Origin: Anaerolineae bacterium
GTDB lineage: Bacteria > Chloroflexota > Anaerolineae > Anaerolineales > Villigracilaceae
DNA: 64,000 nucleotides
Assembly: GCA_022013685.1 (NCBI GenBank)
Contig: JAKLPV010000070.1
Coordinates: forward strand, 1-64,000
Direction: 5' to 3'
The notes beneath the pieces are model-generated. The model searched no databases and had not been told where the DNA came from. It was given only the letters and a program-made list of their open reading frames with translations. A program made the translations under genes and the position numbers. Position 1 is the stretch's first letter. The number at the start of each line of letters is the position of its first letter. Below are positions 2,683-11,760 of the stretch, in pieces.

Positions 2683-3813
2683 TTATCCCAGGTGCATCGG
2701 CATGATTACGTGCAAGAAATGATCGTCGCCAACCGGGCGCACGACGCCGGGCGCATTGGGAGCCGAGGTTTCAATGGCAACATTGGGTGATTTGACCACT
2801 TCCAAAACTTCACGCAAATATTTGACATTGAAAGCGATCAGGAGCGGGATGCCGTCCACAGTCGCTTCAACCAGGGTCTCATTCGAGCCGGTCTCCTCAC
2901 TGTGGGCCGAAATTTCCACTTCGCCGGGCTGCATTTCACCATTGGTCTTGATGTTCAGGCGCACGACATTCGAGCCTTCGCGGGCAAAAATTTCAGCCTG
3001 ACGGCAAGCCTTGAGCAGGGATGCGGTCGAAACCAGGGTGCGGGATTTGTGCGAGCGCGGGATAATTTGTTGATAATCGGGGAAAGTGCCGTCGATCAAC
3101 TGCGAGACCTGTTCGGCATCCTTGATGCGGAAGACAACCTGGCCGCGTCCTTTTGGAAGCACCATCTGGATCATCTGTTCGCCATCTGATGCAATGCGGG
3201 CCAGCTCGTTCAACGCCCTGGCGGGGATGATGGCGCTCACCGGCGCAGCAACCGCTGAAGACAGCGCCGCTTTGCGCACCGAGAGCCGGAAACCGTCGGC
3301 GGCGGCCATCGTCACCAGGTCCTTTTCGACCGTCACGAGCACACCCATCAGCACCGGTCGGGCCTCGTCGGTCGAGGCGGCAAAGGCCACCTGCTGGATC
3401 ATCTCTTTGAAATCGGCAACGTTGATCAGGATGGCGTCTTCAAAATCCGGCACGGGCAGGGGCGGAAATTCCTGGGCGTCGATGCCCTTAATATCGTTGG
3501 TCGAAGAACCGGAACGCACATTCAGGGTCTGGGTCTGGGTATTAAGTGTCAGGCTGACTTGAGGGTCAGGCATGGTACCAACCAGATCGGCCAGGGTGCG
3601 AGATGGAACCGTTGTCGAACCTTCCTCCTCGATTTTCGCGCCGATCCAGCAGGTAATGCCCAATTCCAGGTTGGTTGCCGAAAGGCGCAATCGGCCTTCG
3701 TCAGTAGCAATCAACACATTCGCCAGGACTGGCAGGGTGCTGCGCGGCGAAACAGCGCGGGAAACAATGCTCAATCCGCGCGCAAGGTTTTCTTGAAGGA
3801 CGGTGACTTTCAT
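2683..3813 (-). CDS. dnaN: DNA polymerase III beta sliding clamp
   Basis: A 376-residue beta clamp, the ring that tethers the replicative polymerase to DNA. The start MKVTVLQENL and the C-terminal LHVIMPMHL match the family ends, and the length is the usual ~370 residues with three clamp domains. The ORF track begins 10 codons earlier, but the ATG at 3813 has a well-spaced AGGAG upstream, so I use that start. No dnaA, recF or gyrB lies beside it, unlike the classical dnaA-dnaN-recF order. It is about 6 kb from a cluster of DnaA boxes and is transcribed away from it. Confidence 0.97.
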   Translation of the reverse strand: MKVTVLQENLARGLSIVSRAVSPRSTLPVLANVLIATDEGRLRLSATNLELGITCWIGAKIEEEGSTTVPSRTLADLVGTMPDPQVSLTLNTQTQTLNVRSGSSTNDIKGIDAQEFPPLPVPDFEDAILINVADFKEMIQQVAFAASTDEARPVLMGVLVTVEKDLVTMAAADGFRLSVRKAALSSAVAAPVSAIIPARALNELARIASDGEQMIQMVLPKGRGQVVFRIKDAEQVSQLIDGTFPDYQQIIPRSHKSRTLVSTASLLKACRQAEIFAREGSNVVRLNIKTNGEMQPGEVEISAHSEETGSNETLVEATVDGIPLLIAFNVKYLREVLEVVKSPNVAIETSAPNAPGVVRPVGDDHFLHVIMPMHLG

Positions 3814-3901
3814 CGGCGTTTCTCCTGGAGTTGATATACCCATCCCGGTTGCAAATTGCGACCACGGGCACTATATTATGAAAAAAGTATATCACGAGTT
3901 G

Positions 3902-6663: not shown

Positions 6664-9201
6664 TTATTCAATCCAATATTCCTGCCCGTGCCGCTCGAAG
6701 AAGACCTTGGTAGCAGGCAGGAATCCGTCCCACAAACGGCGGGACCAGGCTTCGAGGCCGGATGGCAGGCATTCGGTCAGGAAGACAGCCGCAGGCAGGG
6801 CCGGGGATTCGCAAATGGCGGGCAGGTCTCTCTCTCCGCGAAAAATAGTTTCGGCCAGTTTATTGATTTGCGACAGGGTCGGCTCACAGCCAAAGACCCA
6901 GGTTGGGCCGCCATCGGGCAGCCGGCACCAGGTCTGATCGGGTTTGGTGGGACTGGTATAGGTGAAGGCGTCTGAAATGGAGCCATTGGTCTGGAACAGG
7001 CGCACGCTGTCTGAGCGGTTGCTGAGCAGCAGGCCGGTCTGGCTGGCGAAAAAGACCGCCCGCGCGCCCGGCGCAAGGCTGACGCCGCTAATGGTATAAG
7101 GCGAAGAATCGCCTTGCTGGTCGTCCAACCGCCAGCCCTGGAGGTCGACCGAAACATTGCCGACATTCAACAGCTCGATGAACTCATCCCCCGAATCGAC
7201 GATGCCGTCGTTGTTCCAATCTGAACGCGGGTGCACCAGAAATTCGTTGAGGATGATCTGGCTGACTTTGGCGGGCGGGATCGGTGTGGGTGTGCGGGTG
7301 CGGGTCGGGGTGCGAGTCGGCCCAACCGGAGAGGGTGTGGGGGTAACGAAGTAAGCCCAGTTAACATTACGCGGTGTGCCGCAGATGTCGTTGCCATCGG
7401 CGTCTTTTCCGTTCTTCAATGTGCCGGTGTTGGTAATCCAGGCCGTGTCGCTATCAACGATGGTCGCCCCACGACGTTCCATACTGCACTTGGTGGTCGA
7501 ATTCCCGGCCGGCCAAACGCCGCCATTCCCGTTGGCGGTATCGATCAACTGGGCCGAAGCTGTCCGTAGAGACAGAGCCATACCGGTATCAACCAGACTG
7601 CCGGTAAAAATTTGGTCAGCATCGATGTCTGAGATGGTGTCATTGTCGGTACGCTCGAGCAGGAAGTAGCCTCCGGCAGGAATCGTACCGGCCAGGGTAA
7701 TGGAAAAGGTACTACCGGCTGCCGTTATTTTCCACCCTGTGATGTTAATCGAGGCTGTGCCAGGGTTATAAAGTTCGATCCACTCATCGTTGCTGCTGGA
7801 TGTGGTCCCCATCCAGGCAACTTCGTTGATGAGGATGGAGCGCAGGCCGGATGGGGTTGAGGTCAGGGTGGGAGAGAGAGTAGCGGTCGGCGTTGCTGTC
7901 GAGGTTGGTGTGGTCGTTGGCGTGCTGGTTGCTCCGGACGACCTGGGTCTTCCGGGAGAACCGTTGATAAGATTGCCAAGCCGATCAGCAGCGTAAGGAG
8001 ACCCGAAGAAATTTAGCCAACTGGCATCATTTTCTAGTCCATAGGGCGGTCCAATTCGCTCCATGCTGGCATAAGAAAAAAAACGGTTTCCTGCCGGCCA
8101 GGATCCGCCATCGCCATTGGCCGTATCTGCCAGAGTACCTTCGCCAATAACCGCGCCTCCACAATACAATTCAAGCCTGTCCCCGCCAACATTCAAAAGG
8201 GGAAACGCAATAGTCATGCCCGGAACAGAAAAGCCTGGAATATTTGTGGGCGTTTCTGTGGGGGTTGGAAAACCGGATATAGGGTAAGTATAGGTTTCGA
8301 CGTTGGTATCAACCTGATTACGCTCGATCAGGTAATAAGAACCAGCCGGAATTGCGCCTTCTAGCTCAATATCTGCCTTGCCCGGGATTCTCAAGAAACA
8401 TTTATTAAGCTCCAGGTCAATATAATCGCCAGGATTATACAATTCGATCCATTGGGCCAGGGTATCATCGGCGCGTGTGCCGCCCCAGGCAACTTCACTG
8501 ATAAAAAGGCGTTGTTGCCATTCAGGGGTAGCAGTGGGGGCAGGGCAAGGAGTGGCCGGAAGAGATGAGTTTTGAGGCTGGCTGGGATCCGTTAGTACAA
8601 AATCTGTCAAATTATTATTATTGTCTTCACAAACATCTACTCGAGCATAGCTAGTGTCAGCATTAGCTGTCAACTCGGGTAAAGGGCTACCTTCAACAAA
8701 AGATGGGGCAGCACTCATACCTACTTGGTCAATAATATTCGTGCCAGTTCGTAATGCAAGGCCACCGTCCGTGGCTATTCCCAAACTATCAGACACATCA
8801 CCAGGAGAAACATCATCGTAAGTTGAGCCAACTATCAAATAATATTGTCCCGGGGCTAAAGTTACAGAACCAAATGTATGTAATGTTGTGTATGAGCCAC
8901 TGCTACTTGAGCGGGCAATATTCCAGCCTGTTATTTCAATAGGTCCTTGAGTTGGATTGAATAATTCAATAAATTCATCGGCAGCCCCCGCAGAACCTAC
9001 TACTCGAAACTCGCTGATGATTACGTTTGTTCCCTGTACTTGCTCGGGCCGATGTTGGGATCCGGCTTCGGCCTGCAACAACCCCGGCGCGCTCAGCAGC
9101 GAGAACGCCAGCGCGCCAAAGGCAGCCAGCGCCAGAAAGCGCCGCAGCCAGGCGAATTGGCCTGGCGAACGTGGTTTGGGGGACGTGGGGAAATTGGTCA
9201 T
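6664..9201 (-). CDS. Secreted protein with four lamin-tail domains
   Basis: An 845-residue exported protein. After a basic start and hydrophobic signal segment ending near LLQAEAG, four lamin-tail (LTD) units can be seen by their repeated cores: NVIISEFRVVG...FIELFNPT, LFISEVAWGG...WIELYNPGD, ILINEVAWMG...WIELYNPGT and IILNEFLVHP...FIELLNVG. Thr/Pro-rich linkers (TPTPTATLSPT type) separate units. LTDs are immunoglobulin-like folds in cell-surface and nuclease proteins; here a cell-surface or extracellular structural role is likely. The start was moved to MTNFPTSPK, giving a conventional signal peptide. DNA encoding the first unit (about 8560-9000) is visibly more AT-rich than the rest. Confidence 0.85.
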   Translation of the reverse strand: MTNFPTSPKPRSPGQFAWLRRFLALAAFGALAFSLLSAPGLLQAEAGSQHRPEQVQGTNVIISEFRVVGSAGAADEFIELFNPTQGPIEITGWNIARSSSSGSYTTLHTFGSVTLAPGQYYLIVGSTYDDVSPGDVSDSLGIATDGGLALRTGTNIIDQVGMSAAPSFVEGSPLPELTANADTSYARVDVCEDNNNNLTDFVLTDPSQPQNSSLPATPCPAPTATPEWQQRLFISEVAWGGTRADDTLAQWIELYNPGDYIDLELNKCFLRIPGKADIELEGAIPAGSYYLIERNQVDTNVETYTYPISGFPTPTETPTNIPGFSVPGMTIAFPLLNVGGDRLELYCGGAVIGEGTLADTANGDGGSWPAGNRFFSYASMERIGPPYGLENDASWLNFFGSPYAADRLGNLINGSPGRPRSSGATSTPTTTPTSTATPTATLSPTLTSTPSGLRSILINEVAWMGTTSSSNDEWIELYNPGTASINITGWKITAAGSTFSITLAGTIPAGGYFLLERTDNDTISDIDADQIFTGSLVDTGMALSLRTASAQLIDTANGNGGVWPAGNSTTKCSMERRGATIVDSDTAWITNTGTLKNGKDADGNDICGTPRNVNWAYFVTPTPSPVGPTRTPTRTRTPTPIPPAKVSQIILNEFLVHPRSDWNNDGIVDSGDEFIELLNVGNVSVDLQGWRLDDQQGDSSPYTISGVSLAPGARAVFFASQTGLLLSNRSDSVRLFQTNGSISDAFTYTSPTKPDQTWCRLPDGGPTWVFGCEPTLSQINKLAETIFRGERDLPAICESPALPAAVFLTECLPSGLEAWSRRLWDGFLPATKVFFERHGQEYWIE

Positions 9202-9303
9202 CAATTGGTCTCTCAGGCCAGCATCAGGCAAATTAAAGCCAAGCCCTGGCGCTCAAGCGCATCATCCCCCGATTATAACCTGCCCAAAAGCCTGCGGGCA
9301 GGG

Positions 9304-9564
9304 TTAGCGCGGTTCGATCACCATTTTTATGGCGGTGCGAACCTTGTCTTCGATTTCCACGTCCACAAACTCTGGCACACAACAAACTTCAATGCCATCT
9401 CCGCGCAGGTAGGTGGTCGCCAGCACCAGAGCTTTGACCGCCTGGTTGACGGCTCCCGCTCCAATGGCCTGCACCTCCGCGCGTTTGTGTTCACGGACGA
9501 CGCCAGCGATTGCCCCGGCGACGGCTGATGTGCGGGAGTTCGCAGAAACTTTAATCATATCCAT
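9304..9564 (-). CDS. spoVS: Stage V sporulation protein S family (SpoVS)
   Basis: An 86-residue protein, exactly the family length. It starts MDMIKVSANSRTSAVAGAIA and ends in DVEIEDKVRTAIKMVIEPR, matching SpoVS, an Alba-like small nucleic-acid-binding fold. In Bacillus it affects septation and sporulation; in non-sporulating lineages its role is unknown. The ORF track adds 27 hydrophobic residues, but the internal ATG at 9564 follows AAGGGAGAG at good spacing and gives the family length. It lies immediately left of the candidate replication origin and points away from it. Confidence 0.93.
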   Translation of the reverse strand: MDMIKVSANSRTSAVAGAIAGVVREHKRAEVQAIGAGAVNQAVKALVLATTYLRGDGIEVCCVPEFVDVEIEDKVRTAIKMVIEPR

Positions 9565-9699
9565 GGTACTCTCCCTTCCAATGATGAGAATGAGGGGCAG
9601 TAAGGTTAAAATGAGTATACAAGATTCAAACAAGCAAATCAACACCGTAATCCAGGCGAGGCTTGCTGGGCAGGCCTCACCGTTTCTGTTGTTTGTTTT

Positions 9700-10075
9700 G
9701 CGTTTTTGGTTTGCTTTAAGAATTAAACAAGGATGTATAAAGAATATACTTATTTAGTATTCGTAGTAGGCGCTGTGGATATGTGGATAAACCCGCCTGA
9801 GCCGCCATATCTGGTGGGCAAGTCTGTGCCGCGGGGCCTATCTGCGGGTTTTCTTGAGGCTGCGCATGCGCGGGGCTGTGGAGAAAAGAGATGAAACCTT
9901 TTTCTTGCGCGGGCGGGGCGTGCTTTCAGGAAACAGCGTTTCCATAAATTGGGTTATCGAAAAGACGCCCCCCATATATGGGGGGCGTCTTTTGTGCAAT
10001 CATCGAACACTTGAGCAGGTTGTCCACAGTAAAGCAATGTTATCCACAGTTTTAAGGCACTTATCCACAGGCTGG
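9700..10075. other. oriC: Candidate chromosomal replication origin (DnaA-box cluster)
   Basis: Within a 563-base gene-free stretch (9565-10127) I see perfect DnaA boxes TTATCCACA at 10040-10048 and 10061-10069 on the plus strand and at 9782-9790 on the minus strand. One-mismatch boxes are TTGTCCACA at 10020, ATATCCACA at 9774 (minus) and TTCTCCACA at 9877 (minus). The three plus boxes are spaced 20 and 21 bases apart, about two helical turns. An AT-rich tract (about 9710-9765) could be the unwinding element. All genes to the left are transcribed away from it. dnaA itself is not in the window. Confidence 0.65.
9960..9993. terminator. Perfect GC-rich palindrome, probable bidirectional terminator
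   Basis: Two 14-base arms (AAAAGACGCCCCCC and its complement) around ATATAT form a perfect palindrome that ends in T4 on either strand. On the minus strand it lies 135 bases downstream of the nucleotidyltransferase gene, so it would stop that transcript before it crosses the DnaA boxes at 9774-9885. It sits between the left and right DnaA-box groups. Confidence 0.7.
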
Positions 10076-10127
10076 ATGGATTTTTTGTGGCCTTGTTTGC
10101 AAAGGGATACCCATATGTGGGTTAAGG

Positions 10128-11123
10128 CTACACGTCATATTGGGCGGTCATGGCGTCCAGGGTCTCTTCCAGCACGTCCAGATAGTGATCCAAACCTTGC
10201 AGGCGCAGGCTTAGGCCGGATGCATCCAGCCCCAATGTTTGCAAGACAGCCAGCCAGTCGTTTTGCTGGGCTTCGTTCAGGGTGCCGGTCTCGGCGCACA
10301 GCGACCAGGTGTGCAACAGTGGCCACAGGCAGGCCGAAGGGGATTCGGTGGCGAGCAGGGCCAGCAGGGCTTGCTTGTAATACTCCAGCCGGGCGGCGTG
10401 GATACGCAGGTCGTTGGGGGGCTGCTGGGCCGCCGCCTGCAGAAAGGCTGCTTCCCAGGCCGGCAGCCAGGCACGCAGGATTTCGGGATCCAGGTCCAGG
10501 CCGCCGAGCAGGGCCAGCAGGGTATCGGTCAATTCGGGGTGGCCGGCCAATTCGGCGCGCCTGGGGAACTCCAACAGGAAGCGCCGCTCGGCCAGGGGAA
10601 ATCCACCCAGGACGGCCAGGGCGTTGGCGGCATTTTCGACCATGGTCAGGTATTCGGGCAGGGTCGGTTCACTGCCCAACTGCGTCATTGTCCAGGCTTC
10701 GCGAGCCGGGCCAGCGAAGGTGCGGGCGCGCCCCAGCAGGTTGGCCGGGTCATCAAACTGGGCGCGCAAGATCGACTGGGTGTACTCGAAAAACTTGCCT
10801 TTTTCATGCAGCAGTTGCGGGTTCCACATGGTCCATCCGCGCCAGGGATCGCTGCGCAGCTCACGTGGTTTGGCGTACAGGCTTTCGGCTTCAAAGACGA
10901 TATCGAGATGGATTTCATTGGATATTTTTACGATTTCGCGCTCGAAGGACGGCTCGTTTTTGGTGATCACCAGCAGGTCTATGTCGGTGCTGCCGCCCAG
11001 AAGCGGTTCGTCCCTGAGCACAGAACCGATCAGGAAAACGGCGACCACGCTTGGGTCCGCTTTGAAGCGTTTGTCCACCGTATCGCGCGCCAGTTTAATC
11101 AGCATCTCTCGGGTAATGCGCAT
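10128..11123 (-). CDS. Nucleotidyltransferase-domain protein
   Basis: A 331-residue protein with an N-terminal nucleotidyltransferase domain: the signature GSVLRDEPLLGGSTDIDLLV (residues ~33-52) gives the GS and DxD elements that bind NTP and metal, and HLDIVF provides the probable third acidic residue. The remaining ~200 residues are helical, like the C-terminal half of aminoglycoside-type nucleotidyltransferases, but the substrate cannot be told. Start chosen at the ATG at 11123, which has GGAG six bases upstream; the ORF-track start lies inside the upstream gene. It begins one base after the deoxynucleoside kinase stop, so the two are one unit. Confidence 0.8.
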   Translation of the reverse strand: MRITREMLIKLARDTVDKRFKADPSVVAVFLIGSVLRDEPLLGGSTDIDLLVITKNEPSFEREIVKISNEIHLDIVFEAESLYAKPRELRSDPWRGWTMWNPQLLHEKGKFFEYTQSILRAQFDDPANLLGRARTFAGPAREAWTMTQLGSEPTLPEYLTMVENAANALAVLGGFPLAERRFLLEFPRRAELAGHPELTDTLLALLGGLDLDPEILRAWLPAWEAAFLQAAAQQPPNDLRIHAARLEYYKQALLALLATESPSACLWPLLHTWSLCAETGTLNEAQQNDWLAVLQTLGLDASGLSLRLQGLDHYLDVLEETLDAMTAQYDV

Positions 11124-11124
11124 C

Positions 11125-11760
11125 TCAATCTCCATCGATCAGCGTAGGTTGGAAGGGCGAAATCCCCAGCGCCTCGCGGATTCGGTTTTCTATCAGGTTC
11201 AGGTGTTCAGGGTAGCGCACAAAGTCGATCGGGTTGCTGTCGATGACCAGCTTGGGGCTGTTGGTCTGGGCAAAAAAATCGTCATAAGCGGCGGCCAGCT
11301 CGGCGATGTAACCGCGTTCCATGGCGCGCTCATAAAAGCGGTCGCGCAAGGCGATGCGTGCCATGAGCGTATCGACGCTGGCCGAAAGGTAGACCGTCAG
11401 GTCGGGCAGCGGGATTTTTTCGGCCAGGGCCTCGTGCACGCGGTGGTACATGGTCAGTTCGTCGCCCTGCAGGTTGATGCGCGCGAAAAGCGAGTCTTTG
11501 GCGAAGGTGTAATCGGCCAGCAGGCTTTTGCCGGTGTTCAAAATGGCCGGAACCGTGCTGTTTTGCTGGCGGTAGCGGCTGAGCAGGAAGAAAATCTGGG
11601 TTTGGAAGGCATAGCGCGCCCGGTCGCCGTAAAAATCGGAAAGGAACGGGTTTTCCTCGAAAACTTCGAGCAAAATTTCGGTATTTTCGAAACGCGGCTG
11701 CAGCAGGCGCGCGAGGGTGGTCTTACCGACCCCGATCACACCTTCGATGGCGATGTACAT
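11125..11760 (-). CDS. Deoxynucleoside kinase
   Basis: A 211-residue kinase of the deoxyadenosine/deoxycytidine/deoxyguanosine kinase family, which phosphorylates salvaged deoxynucleosides. The P-loop is GVIGVGKTT (residues 7-15); EVFEENPFL is the family's substrate-side glutamate region, and the segment ALRDRFYERAME carries the lid arginines. LPDLTVYLSASVDTL is the usual strand before the lid. GGGAG lies upstream of the start. It heads a unit with the nucleotidyltransferase gene. Which base it prefers cannot be read from the sequence. Confidence 0.92.
   Translation of the reverse strand: MYIAIEGVIGVGKTTLARLLQPRFENTEILLEVFEENPFLSDFYGDRARYAFQTQIFFLLSRYRQQNSTVPAILNTGKSLLADYTFAKDSLFARINLQGDELTMYHRVHEALAEKIPLPDLTVYLSASVDTLMARIALRDRFYERAMERGYIAELAAAYDDFFAQTNSPKLVIDSNPIDFVRYPEHLNLIENRIREALGISPFQPTLIDGD

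Follow-up and report, generated by a model that had tools for sequence, protein, structure and literature searches.

Comparative sequence analysis indicates that positions 9720-10070 of the window (the whole 64-kb stretch of DNA that was analysed) are almost certainly the replication origin, oriC, of this Anaerolineales (Chloroflexota) genome. Taken as a whole, the observations are probably best explained by an oriC with NrdR-type box pairs, at which dATP-loaded NrdR would restrain initiation. Comparison of the related loci supports the origin identity, the basal unwinding system (BUS), the box pairs, their conservation, their phasing, and their sharing with the upstream regions of nrdR and dnaA; from these features we infer NrdR as the likely binding protein. 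In an order that is large and for the most part uncultured, the locus would define oriC, knowledge of which is required when growth rates are to be estimated from metagenomes. It also appears to be a clear case of an origin that lost its dnaA neighbour. The features are listed in Table 1.

Table 1. Features of the origin region and of neighbouring genes, in window coordinates.
Feature	Position	Strand	Remarks
dnaN, sliding clamp	2683..3843	-	Pfam DNA_pol3_beta; ~6 kb from origin
spoVS	9304..9564	-	Pfam SpoVS; adjoins origin in most relatives
Putative spoVS promoter, TTGATT-17-TATACT	9614..9642	-	49/70 relatives and 0/200 shuffles show a promoter-like pattern
AT-rich tract, putative unwinding element	9700..9752		sequence reading
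DnaA-trios, minus strand TACTACGAATACTAAA	9753..9768	-	GAT-GAT-GCT-TAT-GAT 3'->5' from 9769, opposite strand
BUS GC-rich spacer, GCGCC	9769..9773	-	sequence reading
BUS DnaA box 2, ATATCCACA	9774..9782	-	one mismatch
BUS DnaA box 1, TTATCCACA	9782..9790	-	perfect
NrdR-type box B1, CCGCCATATCTGGTGG	9802..9817		~26 bp before BUS boxes; second-best site of window
NrdR-type box B2, weak, CCCGCAGATAGGCCCC on minus strand	9833..9848		31 bp from B1
Middle DnaA box, TTCTCCACA	9877..9885	-	one mismatch; TCCACA conserved at that place
NrdR-type box A2, ACCCAATTTATGGAAA on minus strand	9939..9954		30 bp from A1; A pair is top pair of window
Perfect palindrome, 34 bp	9960..9993		A1 plus 9 further pairs per side, ending in AAAA/TTTT; resembles a bidirectional intrinsic terminator
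NrdR-type box A1, CCCCCATATATGGGGG	9969..9984		palindrome core; best-scoring NrdR-type site in 64-kb window
Array DnaA box 3, TTGTCCACA	10020..10028	+	one mismatch
Array DnaA box 2, TTATCCACA	10040..10048	+	perfect
Array DnaA box 1, TTATCCACA	10061..10069	+	perfect; conserved three-box array
Nucleotidyltransferase-domain gene	10128..11135	-	conserved neighbour of origin
Deoxynucleoside kinase gene	11125..11760	-	Pfam dNK; conserved neighbour of origin

Identification of the replication origin

A preliminary description of this DNA had proposed a candidate oriC beside spoVS, in a gene-free stretch of about 560 bases. The gap is real and measures 563 bp, from the spoVS start codon (9564) to the end of the next gene (10128). 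A motif scan recovered the three perfect (TTATCCACA) and three one-mismatch DnaA boxes, all six at the positions claimed. Nowhere else in the window do boxes lie so densely: of the 22 found in 64 kb (at most one mismatch), 6 fall inside 296 bp. Far fewer than one would be expected there from the remaining boxes of the window (Poisson P ~2e-10). All genes to the left of the gap are on the minus strand and point away from it, as described, and dnaN was correctly placed about 6 kb off. A large gene for a lamin-tail-domain (LTD) protein, at 6664-9231, adjoins spoVS in most relatives.

The locus has the features by which an oriC is recognised: an intergenic box cluster beyond chance, a skew change-point (in relatives), and a conserved sequence in single copy. 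The GC skew of the window itself is uninformative. Its own genome consists of 239 contigs, and skew was sampled in two relatives. The genome of the relative G012 is complete, a single contig of 4.40 Mb, and was sampled in 40 stretches, each 20 kb long; its TA skew changes sign at 440-495 kb, and oriC/spoVS is located at 505 kb. A two-arc fit placed the TA change-point at 560 kb, with a bootstrap interval of -265 to +55 kb around spoVS/oriC; none of 200 permutations fitted equally well. The GC skew of G012 is weaker (fit at 680 kb, wide interval). In G057, which belongs to another family, both cumulative skews are lowest in the sample at 1280 kb and have reversed before 1360 kb; the BUS is at 1325 kb.

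The absence of dnaA from the window, which had suggested an origin separated from dnaA, was confirmed: the gene is on another contig (C233). The separation itself is upheld by the skew in G012 and G057. In G012, dnaA is at 3068 kb, in the wrong skew phase and 1.8 Mb from the origin. The dnaA locus was considered as an alternative origin and was ruled out, because a similar box cluster beside dnaA, which the preliminary description had named as contrary evidence, was found in none of 30 genomes. In the family of the window, dnaA lies elsewhere. The same origin adjoins dnaA in families f2, f4, f11, and one f10 member of the same order, as well as, outside this order, at no fewer than eight loci of the class. 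Given that dnaA has stayed next to this origin in other lineages, the separation is a derived state.

Comparison of the spoVS-adjacent region in relatives, which had been suggested as a check, revealed the same layout at 70 distinct loci. The adjacency to spoVS, as part of the original proposal, stands only in a weaker form: it is common, yet inessential, as the origin lies elsewhere in several relatives. Such detached origins keep the nucleotidyltransferase neighbour, and usually the deoxynucleoside kinase as well.

The cluster might instead be a DnaA-titrating or DnaA-reactivating locus (datA/DARS-like), with the true origin elsewhere. Such loci do combine DnaA boxes with an IHF site (PMC8488378), but the complete single-copy BUS, the skew change-point in two families, and the homologous origins beside dnaA elsewhere make this reading extremely improbable.

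The two DnaA modules

The oriC contains two DnaA modules. The three plus-strand boxes of the array start at 10020, 10040, and 10061, which gives steps of 20 and 21 bp, or two helical turns, as had been noted. In 70 distinct relatives, this array with its 21/20-bp spacing is kept in the region upstream of spoVS. Many origins also have a conserved TTGTTCGA motif (CGAACA in the window) immediately inside the array, here at 10005-10014.

In the same 70 relatives, a tandem box pair, 8-9 bp apart, is found about 230-300 bp from the array on the spoVS side. In the window, these are the minus-strand boxes at 9774 and 9782, and the preliminary description had missed that they are part of a BUS with DnaA-trios. 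The strand of the tandem pair reads TTATCCACATATCCACAG-CGCC-TACTACGAATACTAA, which corresponds to boxes, GC spacer, and DnaA-trios. Trios 1 and 2 are exact GAT, trio 3 is degenerate (GCT), and trios 4 and 5 fit NAN. The element therefore comprises the DnaA boxes, the short spacer, and the run of at least three DnaA-trios (NAN) that define a BUS. Such a layout of tandem boxes, GC spacer, and DnaA-trios is known from Bacillus subtilis (PMC8287927). The CTACTA sequence is nearly invariant across the 70 loci.

A BUS model (R1) has its sole match in the own genome at window positions 9721-9791, and it matches in 54 of the 61 relatives, nearly always once per genome. As these loci were the source of the model, matches beside spoVS are expected; the informative ones are those away from spoVS, and those beside dnaA in outgroups.

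The palindrome and its conserved core

The perfect palindrome reported between the modules is real (9960-9993, 17-bp arms, no loop). Its conservation, however, is confined to a 16-bp core, CCCCCATATATGGGGG. The preliminary description had overlooked the conservation of these 16 bp, their partner motif, and a second motif pair at 9802-9848. The distance from the core to the array is 74-77, 85-86, or 95-97 bp, which are steps of a helical turn. Over the distinct distances, the phasing at 10.5 bp has R 0.85, with p ~0.0015, an optimistic value as the loci are related. The phasing of the core to the BUS is weaker.

The palindrome could be merely a terminator or a cruciform that insulates a real origin, with the likeness of its core to an NrdR box being incidental. 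An extension of the core by at least 6 pairs occurs in 9 of 68 origins (this one and 8 others), against 0.25 expected, and several of the extended hairpins have A-run/T-run ends; there are also similar hairpins near recombinase genes. However, the extension is absent in 59 of the 68 origins. The partner box at an offset of +30, the further pair next to the BUS, and the helical phasing are not properties of a terminator, and neither are the conserved central ATATAT and the exact copies upstream of nrdR and dnaA. Termination as the only function is thus improbable, and it was rejected as the main function on account of the 59 origins without the extended hairpin; it may be a second role. In this genus, the extended palindrome is likely an extra insulating terminator.

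Hairpins of the form CCCCC-ATAT-GGGGG with GAGAAC/GTTCTC arms were observed beside tyrosine-recombinase genes elsewhere in the genomes, at G000:C132:5486-5531 (L359) and G004:C116:48065-48104 (L327); they may be attachment sites or terminators.

NrdR-type boxes in the origin

In the whole 64-kb window, the top two NrdR-type sites and the top two pairs are all located in the origin. A weaker site, TACCCATATGTGGGTT, is found at 10108-10123, in the interval from the array to the nucleotidyltransferase gene. With a matrix of nrdR boxes (PWM), the best site falls on the palindrome in 67 of 70 origins. A partner offset of +30 stands out in the 70 origins (mean -1.0 versus -20.7), and the place of B1 has a positive score in 71% of origins. 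NrdR requires paired boxes with a spacer of 15-16 bp and a working range of 14-17 bp (PMC12051234); the spacer criterion applied here was 14-17 bp (or 24-27 bp). The oriC pair has a spacer of 14 bp in 51 origins and of 15 bp in 12. The A pair (14 bp) and the B pair (15 bp) of the window are both inside the NrdR range of 14-17 bp.

Across 800 kb of G012, the score is 28.9 for the oriC pair, against 13.1 for the runner-up. A model built from nrdR boxes only had just two hits with E<=1 in the whole 4.4 Mb of G012, at nrdR (5e-9) and at oriC (0.011). In the own draft genome it gave nrdR at 1e-7, with oriC (0.07) and the dnaA upstream region (0.10) ranking behind a recombinase-side match. The model has three further matches in this genome, on C132, C95, and C107, of which the strongest, on C132, is the one beside a recombinase gene.

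It might be argued that the boxes regulate spoVS, whose putative promoter adjoins the origin, and that their place in the origin is a side effect. The loci where the two are detached decide between these possibilities. The boxes score at least 14 in 9 of 9 detached origins and in 0 of 20 detached spoVS loci (background 0.7%), some of these loci being one genome present in two collections. The boxes therefore belong with oriC and not with spoVS, and a role as spoVS operator was ruled out. They also lie about 160-350 bp upstream of the putative promoter. Altogether, regulation of spoVS as the reason for these boxes is very improbable.

In the origins of other orders the boxes are weaker: 4 of 25 score at least 14 and 15 of 25 at least 10, with backgrounds of 1.3% and 7.6%. 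Strong NrdR-type boxes are absent from the origins of families f2 and f9 of the same order. Compared with the classical NrdR-box consensus acaCwAtATaTwGtg (PMC4009431), the ATA/TAT centre, C4, and G13 are kept, and the outer bases differ. The oriC boxes are probably NrdR sites, as predicted from their form and pairing. Within the literature covered on NrdR with oriC, dnaA, or replication initiation, which was mostly that available without subscription, NrdR boxes were not found to have been described for any replication origin or for the region upstream of dnaA; an earlier in-silico prediction for dnaA is possible.

The same motif at nrdR and dnaA

The exact 14-mer CCCCATATATGGGG occurs in 23 of 61 genomes, and the reversed control gave 0 matches. 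Most of its copies are found in origins, in front of dnaA, or a short way upstream of nrdR. Outside the origins, many copies either immediately precede nrdR or lie some 640-700 bp ahead of the DnaA ATPase domain, which is about 330-380 bp upstream of the dnaA start codon. Among the upstream regions of nrdR, 25 of 30 contain a pair of 16-bp boxes with an offset of 29-31 bp, usually near -85 and -54. Since a matrix derived from the oriC palindromes had initially served to find the nrdR boxes, the motif sets from the two places are partly dependent on each other; exact matches to the 14-mer and the constant place of the nrdR pairs may be taken as the more independent evidence. Box pairs of this kind are the known arrangement of NrdR sites (PMC12051234, PMC4009431). 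A scan directly upstream of the RNR genes gave almost nothing, because nrdR precedes RNR and sits between the promoter and RNR.

The upstream regions of dnaA score at least 14 in 21 of 30 cases, versus a background of 0.9%, and the box there is mostly single. Within the family, the dnaA leader (L306:3150-3620, G000:C233) shows strong conservation. In addition to the NrdR-type box, it contains a repeated TTTAAGGT and its counterpart CTTAAA, a LexA-like element (GAAACnnnnGTTCT), and the -10 sequence TAGAAT. These motifs suggest further regulators of dnaA.

The nrdR gene was found in the own genome (G000:C211) and in 58 of 61 relatives. The protein has a Zn ribbon and an ATP-cone, and matches solved NrdR structures. 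At L307:2190-4001 (G000:C211), the RNR frame of the own genome, which is unusually long (1310 aa), has an internal stretch from CFIGSTRIATDQGMLKIEDL that is intein-like. In the NrdR of this group, D15 and the RRRR motif are kept, and residue 17, one of the two specificity residues in Streptomyces, is not Arg. This changed residue could accompany the changed outer bases of the box.

The shared boxes might also belong to some cell-cycle regulator other than NrdR, which would control nrdR, dnaA, and oriC together. The box does deviate from the classical consensus, specificity residue 17 is changed, and the oriC-derived matrix was used to locate the nrdR boxes. However, a 16-bp palindrome with an ATA/TAT centre and C4/G13, paired three turns apart before nrdR-RNR, is the very definition of an NrdR site. 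The changed residue 17 also fits the changed outer box, and D15 and the RRRR motif are retained. Another regulator is therefore rather improbable.

Proposed mechanism

An action of NrdR at oriC is as likely as not, or slightly more likely. In the mechanism proposed here, DnaA would load on the three-box array (10020-10069) and the BUS pair (9774-9790), spread onto the DnaA-trios (9753-9768), and melt the AT-rich tract towards spoVS. The two NrdR-type pairs (9939-9984 and 9802-9848) lie between these modules, in helical phase with the DnaA boxes. When dATP accumulates, a dATP/ATP-bound NrdR tetramer would bind the pairs and kink the DNA sharply. The kinked DNA would keep the array away from the BUS, and initiation would be restrained together with the expression of dnaA and RNR. 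When dATP falls, NrdR would leave and DnaA could open the origin.

Box pairs that sit between the DnaA modules and keep to one helical face may be placed either to separate the modules or to join them. NrdR might thus be a positive, IHF-like architect of a real origin: dATP-loaded NrdR would bend the DNA so that the array meets the BUS, and initiation would occur only with sufficient dNTPs. NrdR is known to kink DNA strongly (PMC9110341), IHF bending promotes orisome assembly in E. coli (PMC8488378), and the boxes are located between the two DnaA modules in helical phase. In Pseudomonas, topA is activated from a single NrdR box (PMC4409342), which makes the sign of the NrdR effect uncertain. 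On the other hand, NrdR is mainly a repressor, and the boxes common to oriC, the nrdR-RNR promoter, and the dnaA upstream region fit joint repression. In Caulobacter, excess dNTP delays initiation rather than advancing it, by an undefined mechanism (PMC12186491). For these three reasons separation of the modules is favoured, and the IHF-like role is unlikely, though less so than the other alternatives. The deletion of nrdR in Caulobacter acts in the same direction as excess dNTP (PMC12186491), so that Caulobacter provides no evidence for NrdR at the origin.

If NrdR acts at oriC, we infer a negative effect, by a slight preference. There may be an even chance that a single repressor, NrdR, acts directly on the origin, dnaA, and RNR in Anaerolineales, as a switch from dATP to initiation. 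The coupling of replication start to dNTP supply is an unsettled question; NrdR sites inside an origin, if real, would be a concrete link from a nucleotide sensor to the initiation machinery.

Comparison with known systems

Origins in intergenic regions away from dnaA are found in E. coli, Caulobacter, and some cyanobacteria, and the present origin resembles them in this respect. Unlike those origins, it has spoVS, a nucleotidyltransferase gene, and a deoxynucleoside kinase gene as neighbours, and other orders of its class retain dnaA beside the origin.

The BUS is similar to that of the B. subtilis oriC (DnaA-boxes 6/7), with tandem boxes, a short GC-rich spacer, trios on the same strand, and then an AT-rich tract. 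It differs in its location away from dnaA, in the separate three-box array about 230-300 bp off, and in the NrdR-type boxes between both DnaA modules.

The box pairs resemble the NrdR-box pairs of RNR promoters (Streptomyces nrdRJ, Listeria, and E. coli), which are also 16-bp palindromes with an ATA/TAT centre, paired three turns apart; here too, a box pair precedes nrdR. However, the outer arms are G/C-rich, and pairs are located inside a replication origin, with a further box upstream of dnaA. As sites for a DNA-bending regulator between DnaA modules, they would be comparable to the IHF and Fis sites in the oriC of E. coli. Unlike IHF and Fis, NrdR senses dATP/ATP, and such an origin would respond directly to the dNTP pools.
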